Below are positions 5,409-9,121 of a stretch of DNA of 64,000 nt, in pieces (the first letter of the stretch is position 1; each line of letters opens with the position of its first letter). Position numbers and translations under genes: made by a program. Under the pieces are notes generated by a model. The model did no database searches. It had not been told where the DNA came from and saw only the letters and a program-made list of their open reading frames with translations. Source of the stretch: Halorussus salinus. GTDB taxonomy: Archaea; Halobacteriota; Halobacteria; Halobacteriales; Haladaptataceae. The stretch is taken from positions 1,032,927 to 1,096,926 of the forward strand of contig NZ_ML974127.1 of the NCBI RefSeq assembly GCF_004765815.2, written 5' to 3'.

Positions 5409-6116
5409 ATGACACGGACCATCGACGTTTCGACGGACCGACTCAAGCCCGACCGAGACACCCTCTTGTGGGCCGGACTCGTCGTCAACACCGAACTCAT
5501 CCTGACGTTCGCGTACCTCCTGCTCGCGGACGTGACCGTCACCGAGTGGCGCTATCTCGTCTTCCCGTTCGTCTGGATAAATCTGAGCGTGTGGGCGCTA
5601 GTTCGAACCCGGCCCTCGGCCGACTCGTCCCGGACTCGCTACGTCGGCGCGGCCATCGCGGTCGGCTACTTCCTCCTGCTCGGCTACGTCGGCGGTCTGT
5701 TCCAGCCGGGACTGCTCTTCCACAGTCACGGCGGCGGCGCGGGCGCACACACCCACGCGACTGGATTGCGCATCTCGTGGCTCCCGCCCGGCTGGGGTCC
5801 GGCGCTGTTGTACACCGGCGACCTCGTGCAGTTGAACCTGATGCCGTACAAGCTGGTCGGCTACCTGACGCTGGCGTACCTCGTCTACGACACGGTGCTG
5901 GAGACGGCCGGGTCGGCGGTGTCGGGGCTCCTCGGACTCGTCTCGTGCGTGAGTTGCACGTGGCCGGTAATCGCCACCCTCGCGGCCGGGGTCGCGGGGT
6001 CGGGCACCGCAGTCGCGGCCGCGGCCAGCGAGTGGTCCTACACTATCGGCACCGTCGCGTTCGCCGTGACCGTCCTGTTGCTTCGCTGGCGGCCGTCTCT
6101 GGGCAGTCTCCGGTGA
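5409..6116 (+). CDS. polytopic membrane protein downstream of ctaB, function unknown
   Basis: A 235-residue protein with about six or seven hydrophobic helices. It follows ctaB on the same strand after 55 bases and may be co-transcribed with it. Visible details: a His/Gly-rich loop (HSHGGGAGAHTHATG, about 101-115) that could bind metal, and a CVSCTW segment with two cysteines near residue 180. It resembles an uncharacterised haloarchaeal membrane protein found by oxidase genes; I do not recognise an enzymatic family. A role in oxidase assembly or copper handling would be inference from position and the His/Cys residues. It is the last high-GC gene before the lower-GC restriction-modification insert. 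Confidence 0.7.
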   Translation: MTRTIDVSTDRLKPDRDTLLWAGLVVNTELILTFAYLLLADVTVTEWRYLVFPFVWINLSVWALVRTRPSADSSRTRYVGAAIAVGYFLLLGYVGGLFQPGLLFHSHGGGAGAHTHATGLRISWLPPGWGPALLYTGDLVQLNLMPYKLVGYLTLAYLVYDTVLETAGSAVSGLLGLVSCVSCTWPVIATLAAGVAGSGTAVAAAASEWSYTIGTVAFAVTVLLLRWRPSLGSLR

Positions 6117-6132
6117 ACTGCGTTCTTCCAAA

Positions 6133-6142
6133 GGAATATTAC
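6133..6142 (+). promoter_or_regulatory. TATA-like box of the methyltransferase gene
   Basis: GGAATATTAC lies about 28-37 bases before the ATG at 6170 in an A/T-rich 53-base gap, fitting a leaderless haloarchaeal promoter. It lets the methyltransferase be transcribed independently of the upstream oxidase genes. Confidence 0.5.
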
Positions 6143-6169
6143 GAAGAACGCGAGAAAAGTAACATAGAC

Positions 6170-7324
6170 ATGGGAAGGCCGCCACACAAGGTCGTCGACC
6201 TCTTTAGCGGCGCGGGTGGTTTCTCACTCGGTTTGGAGATGCCGGAACGACTGAACGGAATCGCGAATCTCGGATACGAGGAAATCGGTTTCGAAGACGA
6301 CCTCTTCGAGACCGTTCTGGCGGTCGAAGCGGACGACAACACTGCGGAGACGTTTCGTCGGAACTTCGGCGCAGAAGTATTCGAAGGAGATATCCGAGAT
6401 ATCGACTCGTTCGAGCGATGGGACGACGCCGAAGTCGTCGTCGGCGGTCCTCCTTGCCAAGGGTTCTCTAATCTCAACAAGACCCAGACCGAAGAACTGG
6501 ACGACGAGCGGAACACGCTTTGGCGACAGTTCCTCCGCGCAGTCGAGGAGATAGAGCCGGACGTATTCCTCATCGAGAACGTGCCTCGGTTTCTCAAATC
6601 CCGACAAGGCGCTCGGACCGTCGAAATCGCCGAGGAGTTAGGATACACCACCGTGGTCGATACGCTCTGGGCGCACGAATACGGGGTCCCGCAGAAACGC
6701 AAGCGAGCGTTCGTGTTGGGTAGCAAACTCGGCGTACCGTTCTTCCCCGCGAAGACCGACGAGGAGACTCGGACGGTTCGGGACGCCATCGGCGATCTGC
6801 CGAACGAACCGACCGAGGAGAACTGGCACGTGAGCCGGAAGCACGTCACGGAACTCAGCGAGAAACGCTTCCGAGAGGTCCCTCCGGGCGGGAACCGACA
6901 CGACCTCCCCGAGGAGTTGATGCCCGAGTGCTGGAAGAACAAGACCCGAGGCGGGACGGACCTGTTCGGTCGTCTGTGGTGGGACCGGCCGTCCGTGACT
7001 ATCCGAACGGAGTTCTACAAGCCCGAGAAGGGTCGCTACCTCCACCCTGAAGCGAACCGCTCCATTACGATTCGAGAGGGCGCGAGACTACAGACGTTCC
7101 CGGACGATTTCGAGTTCTACGGCGCGAGGACCCGCGTCGCGCCCCAAATCGGAAACGCGGTCCCGCCGAAGTTGTCGTACCACATCGGCGACGCCATCGC
7201 CGACCATCTCGACGGGAAGACCAGCGATATCGACCCGAAGGTCGATACCGAACATGAAGTTTTCCAGAAGTCGTTCCGCGGTGGAGAGGTCGAACAAGCA
7301 AGACTGAGCGTGTTCAACGAGTAG
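6170..7324 (+). CDS. DNA (cytosine-5-)-methyltransferase
   Basis: Transfers a methyl group from S-adenosylmethionine to C5 of cytosine in a specific DNA site; probably the modification half of a restriction-modification pair. The 384 residues carry the ordered m5C motifs: I, VVDLFSGAGGFSLG (8-21); IV with the catalytic Cys96, VGGPPCQGFS; VI, FLIENVPRF (133-141); VIII, QKRKRAFVLG; a VPPGGNR block; and X, QIGNAVPPKLS. The region between VIII and X is the expected target-recognition domain. The ATG at 6170 directly precedes motif I. The stop lies 12 bases from the end of the convergent HNH gene. GC is lower than in flanking genes, suggesting transfer. The recognition sequence cannot be read from the protein. 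Confidence 0.95.
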   Translation: MGRPPHKVVDLFSGAGGFSLGLEMPERLNGIANLGYEEIGFEDDLFETVLAVEADDNTAETFRRNFGAEVFEGDIRDIDSFERWDDAEVVVGGPPCQGFSNLNKTQTEELDDERNTLWRQFLRAVEEIEPDVFLIENVPRFLKSRQGARTVEIAEELGYTTVVDTLWAHEYGVPQKRKRAFVLGSKLGVPFFPAKTDEETRTVRDAIGDLPNEPTEENWHVSRKHVTELSEKRFREVPPGGNRHDLPEELMPECWKNKTRGGTDLFGRLWWDRPSVTIRTEFYKPEKGRYLHPEANRSITIREGARLQTFPDDFEFYGARTRVAPQIGNAVPPKLSYHIGDAIADHLDGKTSDIDPKVDTEHEVFQKSFRGGEVEQARLSVFNE

Positions 7325-7336
7325 TCCGAACTCGAA

Positions 7337-8005
7337 TCACCTGTCGTCTTCTCGGCCACCTCGTCGCCGATTGGCGACGTTCTCCGACGCGCTCTTGCCG
7401 TGATGGCATTCGTTACAGAGGGTTCGGAGATTCGAGGAGTCGTTCACTGCCCGTGGGTCGTCGTAATCCACGAACGATTCGATGTGGTCTACCTCCATAT
7501 ACCGCACGTCGGGGTGGTCTACGGTCCGGCCGCAGATTCGACACGCCTCTTCGCGCTCTAACTGTTCGTAGCGCGTCTGTGCAGTGATTCTGCTCTTCTC
7601 ATCTACGTCTCGGACCTCTACCACGAAGTAGTCGTTCTGTCCGAGTTCCGCTCTCGTTCTGGTACTGTCGATGACGAATCCCTCCTCGTTTCGGAGTTCA
7701 CGGACGCGTCGGGCGTACTCGCTTATTCCGCTGATTCGGGCCAAAGTCGCTGATTCGACTGCCTCGCCGATGTTGTCCCTCAGATGCTCCCTAATTCGTC
7801 CTTTTCCGCTCGTCTCGTCGAAAATCACGGCGTACAGTTCCGTCTCGTGAGCCTCGAACTCGCTCACCGCTTGCACATATTCGTCGAGTTCCGCCTCCCA
7901 ATTTTCTCGCGTTACCCCCTCCGGGTCGACCGAATCGAGTGTCTCGACGACCCGCTCCGCTCTCGCCAGTGTCTCTTCGTAAGTTTGCTTAAACTCGTTG
8001 TCCAT
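7337..8005 (-). CDS. HNH endonuclease, likely restriction partner of the methyltransferase
   Basis: Predicted nuclease of 222 residues. The C-terminus is a zinc-bound HNH module: Cys155 and Cys158 (CRICG), the DH pair at 173-174 (MEVDHIESF), Asn192 (SSNLRTLC), then Cys197, Cys200 and His201 (CNECHH). The middle (about 70-130, ISGISEYARRVRELR) looks like a helix-turn-helix that could read DNA; the N-terminal 60 residues are acidic and helical. The ATG at 8005 is chosen; a TTG two codons earlier is less likely. A minus-strand box (TAATATAATTATG, 8023-8035) lies about 25 bases upstream, so the message should be leaderless, and a palindrome covers the start codon. Pairing with the methyltransferase is inferred from convergent adjacency and shared composition. 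Confidence 0.85.
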   Translation of the reverse strand: MDNEFKQTYEETLARAERVVETLDSVDPEGVTRENWEAELDEYVQAVSEFEAHETELYAVIFDETSGKGRIREHLRDNIGEAVESATLARISGISEYARRVRELRNEEGFVIDSTRTRAELGQNDYFVVEVRDVDEKSRITAQTRYEQLEREEACRICGRTVDHPDVRYMEVDHIESFVDYDDPRAVNDSSNLRTLCNECHHGKSASENVANRRRGGREDDR

Positions 8006-8082
8006 CGACAACGAATTTTTGACATAATTATATTACATTTCGTTGCCTTTCAATACATCTTGTTTCGTATTTTTGCAACGAA
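7995..8082. promoter_or_regulatory. compound inverted-repeat operator candidate between nuclease and regulator genes
   Basis: Four copies of the hexamer TCGTTG/CAACGA occur in 88 bases. Two form a tight palindrome, TCGTTGTC-CATC-GACAACGA (7995-8014), which straddles the HNH start codon and probable transcription start. Two form a wider inverted repeat, TTCGTTGC (8039-8046) and GCAACGAA (8075-8082), lying between the two opposed TATA boxes (minus at 8023-8035, plus TTTAAT at 8084-8089). The geometry fits a repressor that shuts both promoters, the obvious candidate being the adjacent winged-helix protein. The repeats are seen directly; the binding is inferred. Confidence 0.6.
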
Positions 8083-8115
8083 GTTTAATTTCGGGTACTA
8101 TATTACGTCTTTACA

Positions 8116-8406
8116 ATGGAAATTACGCAGATTGGCAAAGCACTGTCAAGCGAAACTCGAATCAAAATCCTTGATATCGTATCGGAGAACGGCCATTCGT
8201 CTATCGAGACGTTCGAGAAGTACGGCGAGGAATACGAAGACGACAAGCGCCGGGAGACGATATATCGGGAACTGGAAAACCTCGTGAAGGCCGGACTACT
8301 CTCCAAAGAGTACGACGAGACCGACAGTCAGATAGTGTACCGACTCAAGCATCAAGGACTGGTAATCAATATCGACTCCGTAACTGTAGAACCGCGTGAC
8401 GAATAA
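8116..8406 (+). CDS. small winged-helix (ArsR-like) regulator, possible controller protein
   Basis: A 96-residue DNA-binding protein. The opening IGKALSSETRIKILDIVSENG is the typical first helices of an ArsR-type winged helix; then a charged segment, then IYRELENLVKAGLLSKEYDE as recognition helix and wing, then a beta tail. No metal-binding Cys pair is visible, so metal sensing is unlikely. It is divergent from the HNH nuclease across 110 A/T-rich bases filled with inverted repeats. In many type II systems a controller protein times nuclease expression; this gene is placed for that role but is not of the classic bacterial C-protein (XRE-like) fold. Function in control is inference. Composition matches the insert (32 of 60 bases GC at 8221-8280) rather than the flank. 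Confidence 0.75.
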   Translation: MEITQIGKALSSETRIKILDIVSENGHSSIETFEKYGEEYEDDKRRETIYRELENLVKAGLLSKEYDETDSQIVYRLKHQGLVINIDSVTVEPRDE

Positions 8407-8477: not shown

Positions 8478-8495
8478 GTCAGACGTACGTCTGAC
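8478..8495. promoter_or_regulatory. 18-bp perfect palindrome before the SHOCT gene
   Basis: GTCAGACGTACGTCTGAC is a perfect 18-base palindrome ending two bases before the ATG at 8498. A TATA-like box (ACTATAATTC, 8461-8470) is 28-37 bases before that ATG, so the palindrome overlaps the expected transcription start. This is the position of a repressor operator; the binder is unknown. Confidence 0.6.
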
Positions 8496-8497
8496 AC

Positions 8498-9121
8498 ATG
8501 TCGTCCCCCGGTGACGACGCCAGACGATACGCGTCGATGCTCGCCGAACGCGCGGACCACTGGTCGGTGACGACCGAACGACTGGCGGGGACTGCCGACG
8601 CAGTCGCCGATCTCTCGAATGCGCTCGTCACTGCGCTCGCCGACGGCGAGCGTCCGAAGTTCTGCTTCGAGGCCGACGAGACCGGCGTCGGGTTCGGCGA
8701 CCCGGAGGCGACCGTCTCGCCCGAGCGCGGCGGCGTCTACCTGCTGACCGACCGGCGGGTCTACCTCCGCTTGGGCGTCGGCGACGGCGACGACGAGTCA
8801 CTGAGCCTCCCGTACGCGGACATCGTCGGCGTGCGCAATCGGCACGGACGACGCCGCCACCGCATCGACCTCGCGGTGTCGGGAGCGAGATACTACCTCT
8901 GGGTCTCCTCGCGGTTCGACGCCGACGACGTGACCGCCGCCACCGAGTACGTTCACTACCGCCACACCGCTGAGACGCCCGACTCGGGCGGGAGCGGTTC
9001 GTCGTCCGGCGAGCCACAGAGCCTCCGCGAGCGACTGGAGCGACTCGGCGACGCGAAGTCGCGGGGACTCATCGACGAAGAGGAGTTCCAGCGCCGAAAG
9101 GACGAACTGCTCGACGGGTGA
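8498..9121 (+). CDS. PH-like and SHOCT domain protein, function unknown
   Basis: A 207-residue soluble protein. The middle (about 45-150) has the strand pattern of a bacterial PH-like domain (GGVYLLTDRRVYLRLGV, LSLPYADIVGVR, YYLWVSSRF). A Ser/Gly linker leads to a C-terminal SHOCT helix pair (LRERLERLGDAKSRGLIDEEEFQRRKDELL), a short module common at the ends of prokaryotic proteins and thought to mediate oligomerisation. GC returns to the host level here (42 of 60 bases at 8641-8700), marking the right edge of the lower-GC insert. The perfect palindrome over the promoter suggests single-gene regulation. No membrane segment or catalytic motif is visible. Confidence 0.75.
   Translation: MSSPGDDARRYASMLAERADHWSVTTERLAGTADAVADLSNALVTALADGERPKFCFEADETGVGFGDPEATVSPERGGVYLLTDRRVYLRLGVGDGDDESLSLPYADIVGVRNRHGRRRHRIDLAVSGARYYLWVSSRFDADDVTAATEYVHYRHTAETPDSGGSGSSSGEPQSLRERLERLGDAKSRGLIDEEEFQRRKDELLDG

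Follow-up and report, generated by a model that had tools for sequence, protein, structure and literature searches.

The window analysed here is a 64,000-nucleotide stretch of a chromosome of Halorussus salinus, in which a three-gene cassette (positions 6117 to about 8435) most probably constitutes a type II restriction-modification (R-M) system that is mobile and regulates itself. The genes encode a 5-methylcytosine (m5C) DNA methyltransferase, a nuclease that combines a winged helix-turn-helix (wHTH) with an HNH domain, and a 96-amino-acid winged-helix protein, here called WH, which would be the controller of an operator shared by two divergent promoters. This explanation draws on the genes themselves, their insertion at this place, their co-occurrence among Halorussus genomes, the conservation of the operator, depletion of the hexamer GCCGGC in the hosts, and the neighbourhoods of WH homologues. 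These neighbourhoods also make it rather likely that WH, as the first member to be recognised, belongs to a group of winged-helix proteins dedicated to the control of type II R-M systems in archaea. The group would span haloarchaea and another family of the phylum, serve nucleases of the HNH, EcoRV, TdeIII and HincII types, and be the counterpart of bacterial controller (C) proteins on a different fold.

All three genes are real. A sequence-only reading of the same DNA had described a complete m5C methyltransferase, an HNH nuclease and a divergent regulator as one unit, which is borne out by matches to PF00145 and PF01844 and by the winged-helix topology of the third protein. The methyltransferase (6170 to 7324, forward strand) matches PF00145 with an E value of 2.9e-63 and has motifs I (DLFSGAGG), IV (PPCQGFS), VI (ENV), VIII and X in the order typical of C5-cytosine methyltransferases. 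Its core promoter, read from the sequence as a TFB-recognition element (BRE)/TATA-like CCAAAGGAATATTAC, lies inside a 9-base-pair (bp) perfect inverted repeat, GCGTTCTTC-N14-GAAGAACGC (6120 to 6151), that is found in the window species only. The nuclease gene (7337 to 8005, reverse strand) ends 12 bases from the methyltransferase stop, exactly as had been counted. It matches PF01844 above the cut-off (E = 1.5e-7), and alignments reveal a zinc-type CxxC..DH..N..CxxCH arrangement, in which the CxxC pairs and the H-N-H residues of a beta-beta-alpha-metal nuclease are kept in the intact copies.

An AlphaFold model of the nuclease from a 20-sequence alignment has a mean predicted local distance difference test score (pLDDT) of 82. 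It comprises a helical N-terminus (residues 3-65), a winged helix (67-131; 7613 to 7807, reverse strand), also indicated by structure search, and the HNH domain (142-216, of which residues 142-205 correspond to 7391 to 7582, reverse strand). The modelled winged helix is presumably the DNA reader, and many bacterial relatives of the nuclease have two such domains. A weak Pfam match to NaeI over the winged helix is below the cut-off, and a structure search with the helical N-terminus plus wHTH returned common-fold matches only.

Of 18 Halorussus genomes, 5 have a close homologue of each of the three genes, and the other 13 contain no close homologue of the methyltransferase, the HNH nuclease or WH singly. 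The co-occurrence that the sequence-only reading offered as a check is thus strict within the genus. In every one of the five cassettes the methyltransferase and nuclease genes are adjacent and co-inherited, as in type II R-M systems, and the gene order, orientation and a 109-111-bp spacer between the HNH and WH genes are identical in kind. Among 392 genomes of the order, full-length homologues of the nuclease are found in these five only. One methyltransferase homologue, with about 55% identity, occurs outside the five carriers, and adjoins a gene for a UvrD-like helicase-nuclease, not HNH. At that locus (L076; G062:C2, 3812-8000) the methyltransferase gene is convergent with a gene for a 963-amino-acid fusion of a UvrD helicase and a PD-(D/E)XK nuclease, and two small winged-helix-like genes are located upstream of it. 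The earlier reading would have been undermined by a regulator and nuclease routinely found without the methyltransferase; in the genus neither occurs singly, but distant relatives of the nuclease do exist without this methyltransferase.

The cassette is missing at the same place in seven Halorussus relatives, in which the flanking genes (an upstream gene that ends at 6116 and a SHOCT-domain gene that starts at 8498) are adjacent. These empty sites are strong evidence for insertion. In the closest of them, in G097, window positions 6116 and 8435 are only 12 bp apart, and in the other relatives the flanks at 6116 and 8435/8436 are separated by some tens of bp. The comparison of relatives that had been suggested therefore succeeded, with the proposed right limit of 8480 corrected to about 8435. 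The description of the cassette as a lower-GC insert is likewise right on both counts, and its hand counts of G and C (32/60 at 8221-8280, 42/60 at 8641-8700) are exact. However, the insert has 55.5% GC and the remainder of the window 65.3%, a difference that places the insert only 10th from the bottom among 309 segments of 2.3 kb; because GC content alone is such weak evidence, it was rejected as proof of insertion and the empty-site comparison was used instead.

Placements vary among carriers. The G074 cassette is in the same neighbourhood as that of the window, but across a truncated SHOCT gene, which reflects either a repeated insertion place or a rearrangement; the SHOCT gene beside it lacks the N-terminal two thirds (L072, G074:C1 ~606770-606990). 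Halorussus aquaticus (G176) and H. ruber carry the cassette at other genomic places, and H. aquaticus has an empty site at the position that corresponds to the window insert. The H. caseinilyticus cassette is on a plasmid. The empty sites and varied placements imply that the cassette moves as one piece. No recombinase, terminal repeats or target duplication was seen in the insert or at its junctions. A viral origin was rejected, as close relatives of the HNH nuclease or methyltransferase were not found in viral contigs.

The WH gene (8116 to 8406, forward strand) is divergent from the nuclease gene. Its family-model matches are weak (HTH_20, FUR, ArsR, HTH_metalloreg at 1.2e-4 and a Csa3-type wHTH at 3e-7) and none reaches its cut-off. 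The structural model has winged-helix topology at low confidence, and the best Foldseek matches are Fur, CzrA, SqrR and ArsR. The earlier label of ArsR-like regulator thus applies to the fold, but WH is not a usual metal sensor because it has no cysteine; accordingly, it lacks the Cys/His metal-binding site of ArsR/SmtB proteins and scores 21.8 bits with NF033788, compared with a cut-off of 55. WH also has no match to the XRE/lambda-type helix-turn-helix of classical C proteins. The suspicion of a winged-helix regulator outside the XRE type is upheld, and it comes with a conserved predicted operator.

This predicted operator is located in the divergent promoter region between the HNH and WH genes (8006 to 8115; 30% GC in the window). 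Its three half-sites keep a fixed spacing, TTTGTTAC-N14-TGTTAC-N8-GTAACAAA; species deviate slightly from this pattern, and half-site A is degenerate in G074. In the window, half-site A (TTCGTTGC, 8039 to 8046) abuts the TATA-like region of the nuclease gene, half-site B (8061 to 8066) is TGTTTC instead of the TGTTAC or CGTTAC of other cassettes, and half-site C (8075 to 8082) abuts TTTAATTT upstream of WH. The window forms of A, TTTCGTTGC, and C, GCAACGAA, have the same two changes in both arms, and still constitute a perfect 8-bp inverted repeat with a gap of 28. Dinucleotide shuffling of each spacer gives a perfect 8-bp repeat at this gap in 0.15-0.35% of cases. The full operator, in either form, was not found elsewhere in about 2 Mb of sequence from five genomes, and the window has a single copy; no WH-type operator is present at the methyltransferase promoter. 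Residue 45 of WH (codon 8248-8250), where the predicted recognition helix begins, is arginine in the window and histidine in the other four cassettes. This change in step with the A.T to G.C changes of the operator is a single event and suggestive only.

A profile made from the five Halorussus WH proteins, with homologues picked regardless of neighbourhood, identified three clear relatives beyond Halorussus (E values from 2e-19 to 3e-10; L261, L262 and L260 in the haloarchaeal genomes G009, G049 and G133). One is separated by a 107-bp spacer from a divergent gene that encodes a nuclease of the EcoRV type (PF09233, E = 1.5e-13), and the other two are each flanked by genes for a nuclease of the TdeIII type (PF09520, E = 5e-43 and 3e-39) and an m5C methyltransferase. 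An extended profile returned the same eight proteins in the 392 genomes and four more in another family of the phylum. Each of these four is encoded immediately upstream of a gene for a nuclease of the HincII type (PF09226). Two copies are complete and match with E = 4e-8 and 4e-11; the other two loci are at contig ends and were assigned by similarity to the complete copies. In the complete copies, a gene for an m6A-type methyltransferase with a TaqI_C domain converges on the nuclease gene. All 12 strong WH homologues therefore adjoin a restriction gene, whatever the nuclease type: HNH five times, EcoRV once, TdeIII twice and HincII four times, which are four unrelated kinds of nuclease. Occurrence of WH relatives beside other restriction enzymes strengthens rather than weakens the idea of a controller. 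Weaker matches (E of about 1e-7; in G350, G247, G592 and G442) resemble ordinary regulators without R-M neighbours and are not counted. The HincII loci (L273-L276 in G488, G637, G496 and G649) share a conserved palindrome, TTGCCTNANTNGGCAA, upstream of WH. The window half-site GCAACGAA resembles TTGCC...GGCAACAAAG, the palindrome that precedes the WH gene at these loci.

The relatives of the methyltransferase point to its target. Enzymes from bacterial plasmids that are 43-48% identical are partnered either with a wHTH-HNH nuclease (Sphingomonas, Pandoraea) or with an NgoMIV enzyme, confirmed by PF09015 (Rhodococcus, Mycobacterium), and an Acidithiobacillus plasmid pairs a more distant methyltransferase with HNH. 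In E. coli, NgoMIV adjoins a methyltransferase whose DNA shares about 70% identity with that of an HNH-paired enzyme, and another strain has the HNH partner. About half of 36 wHTH-HNH loci in viral contigs also hold a methyltransferase at 40-45% identity, and the target-recognition region is nearly the same among those compared. The window enzyme has the conserved target-recognition region (GGTDLFGRLWWDRPSVTIRTEFYKPEKGRYLHP, 6827 to 7105, forward strand) of this NgoMIV- and HNH-paired family. Thus, judged by sequence comparison, the methyltransferase/HNH pair is a type II R-M system of a widespread, known bacterial kind. The sequence-only reading saw a winged-helix controller paired with an HNH nuclease in an archaeon as a different design, which holds for the controller; the methyltransferase/HNH pair itself did not originate with archaea. 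A second m5C methyltransferase in the H. salinus genome (L195; G000:C7:130500-131558; 677 amino acids) is 33% identical and has a different recognition region.

Because related methyltransferases pair with HNH or NgoMIV, and NgoMIV cuts G^CCGGC (PMC4081073), GCCGGC was predicted as the site before any sites were counted. Observed-to-expected ratios under a Markov model, compared in nine genomes by using samples of 100-400 kb, are 0.02, 0.02, 0.08, 0.12 and 0.03 in the five carriers, and 0.72, 0.68, 0.41 and 0.00 in four non-carriers, of which the last is G066. Of 29 testable six-base palindromes, GCCGGC best discriminates carriers from non-carriers, and none of its one-base variants is depleted. 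Whole-genome counts relative to CGGCCG in all 18 genomes are 0.013-0.053 in carriers, whereas the geometric mean of the non-carriers is 0.24 (p = 0.002, without correction for kinship). All carriers therefore avoid the site, as expected for hosts of a type II system, though three non-carriers are also low. The bacterial plasmids are not counted as a second test of depletion: the ratio is 0.23 in Sphingomonas, in which other palindromes are also low, and 1.01 in Pandoraea. Experimental data exist for Aeromonas phage PhiO23A, in which an HNH gene (of the ORF48/ORF49 pair) adjoins an m5C methyltransferase gene, and expression of the methyltransferase blocks PdiI, which recognises GCCGGC, but not enzymes for GGCC, CGCG or GCGC (PMC5446998). 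This result was found after the prediction, and the likeness of ORF49 to the window enzyme is judged by family description.

In the proposed mechanism, for which we infer cleavage, binding and the direction of regulation, the methyltransferase would mark cytosines in GCCGGC from its own promoter, and the wHTH-HNH protein would cut unmarked GCCGGC or a site that contains it. WH dimers might bind half-sites A and C (and B) between the divergent promoters, and bound WH would then set the level of the nuclease and of WH itself. The methyltransferase would stay outside WH control, and the switch that governs attack would then put no limit on protection. Repression of both promoters, with autoregulation, is favoured by the position of half-sites A and C, which adjoin the BRE/TATA regions or overlap with them.

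Several observations weigh against this explanation. Two of the five cassettes are decayed: the HNH gene of H. ruber is frameshifted near residue 45, and the H. caseinilyticus plasmid copy has a truncated methyltransferase, a truncated WH and an HNH protein without the second zinc cysteine pair. The WH model has a pLDDT of 55. GCCGGC is scarce in the non-carriers G066, G041 and G082 as well, and carriers are also depleted of GGCGCC, so depletion of GCCGGC alone is no proof of the site. G066 has almost no GCCGGC, and other palindromes (GTCGAC, TCGCGA, CACGTG) are extremely depleted in it. Its other methyltransferases were rejected as the cause of low GCCGGC because their recognition region differs, and an NgoMIV enzyme, considered as the cause in non-carriers generally, gave no match in a search of Halorussus that lacked a positive control. 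Finally, a pure repressor would not in itself hold back the nuclease when the cassette enters a naive cell.

The need for such a delay favours activation, or a two-stage switch like that of C proteins. Perhaps the nuclease gene is activated by WH, in the manner of classical C proteins, which would solve the establishment problem because the nuclease would wait for WH. Archaeal activators can act just upstream of TATA regions, and the half-sites are so placed. However, they overlap the presumed BRE of both promoters, a position that fits repression too, and activation is a tentative but substantial alternative to the favoured repression.

Another possibility is that the R-M pair is real and WH is an unrelated passenger or regulates some other target, with the spacer conserved through shared cassette ancestry. 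The fold is generic and the model of WH is weak. However, WH tracks the HNH and methyltransferase genes in five genomes at several different places, the half-sites are kept at fixed spacing while the rest of the spacer drifts, the window arms have changed symmetrically, and more distant WH homologues adjoin three further unrelated restriction enzymes. A passenger role is therefore unlikely.

A GGCGCC target, as predicted for other families of haloarchaeal HNH nucleases (PMC6471742), is very improbable: GGCGCC is depleted in all five carriers, but almost as depleted in most non-carriers, and it is the poorer separator of the two groups (log difference of -1.15, versus -2.52 for GCCGGC, calculated without G066), the sister species G097 differs about 28-fold for GCCGGC and about 3-fold for GGCGCC, and methyltransferase homologues accompany NgoMIV or, in the tested phage, methylate GCCGGC (PMC5446998). 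Equally improbable is a modification-dependent (type IV) or homing-type HNH nuclease beside an orphan methyltransferase: fusions of wHTH and nuclease that read methylation exist (PMC11037411) and HNH domains are common among homing enzymes, but the two genes travel together in Halorussus and, with the same target-recognition region, in bacteria, where the type II enzyme NgoMIV substitutes for HNH beside closely related methyltransferases, and site avoidance by hosts fits restriction of unmodified sites.

Next to the cassette, an 18-bp perfect palindrome, GTCAGACGTACGTCTGAC (8478-8495), follows a TATA-like CTATAATT and precedes the ATG of the SHOCT-domain gene (8498-9121). It is unique in the window, and other Halorussus species retain it as GTCAGACGTTCGTCTGAC or in a nearly identical form. 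The palindrome is a candidate operator of the SHOCT-domain gene, not of the cassette.

The timing of restriction-enzyme expression in archaea is essentially undescribed in the open-access papers searched, in which a winged-helix controller common to unrelated archaeal R-M systems was not found either; the available parts of haloarchaeal and archaeal R-M surveys (PMC6471742, PMC10609329) do not mention one. A transferable controller, a defined operator and a naturally altered pair of operator and recognition helix make the question directly testable in Haloferax volcanii. WH homologues are a handle for finding unannotated restriction enzymes beside them, and the assignment of GCCGGC is a worked example of a target site predicted from partner swapping and site avoidance.

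The methyltransferase/HNH pair is of a kind already known, and the new part is WH as controller. The PhiO23A genes ORF48/ORF49 and their bacterial and prophage relatives resemble the window in having HNH beside an m5C methyltransferase, which in PhiO23A protects GCCGGC from PdiI (PMC5446998). The bacterial pairs examined are mostly in tandem, some with Vsr and many with two winged helices in the nuclease, and none has WH beside it. R-M systems of the NgoMIV type share with the window a closely related methyltransferase, the same target-recognition region and very probably the same site, but the NgoMIV nuclease (PF09015, PD-(D/E)XK) is unrelated to the HNH protein. The haloarchaeal HNH families cHG_004, 015 and 039, counted among haloarchaeal R-M genes (PMC6471742), differ from the window nuclease in their predicted site, GGCGCC. 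ArsR/SmtB and Fur proteins have the winged-helix fold of WH, but WH has no cysteine and no family model at cut-off. A functional parallel would be the C proteins. These are helix-turn-helix proteins of the XRE/lambda-repressor type, often encoded in an operon with the nuclease gene. Like them, WH is small, predicted to bind DNA, encoded with the nuclease and accompanied by a conserved, symmetric operator next to both its own promoter and that of the nuclease, and a single family accompanies unrelated R-M systems; in contrast, WH has a winged helix and is here encoded divergently from the restriction gene.

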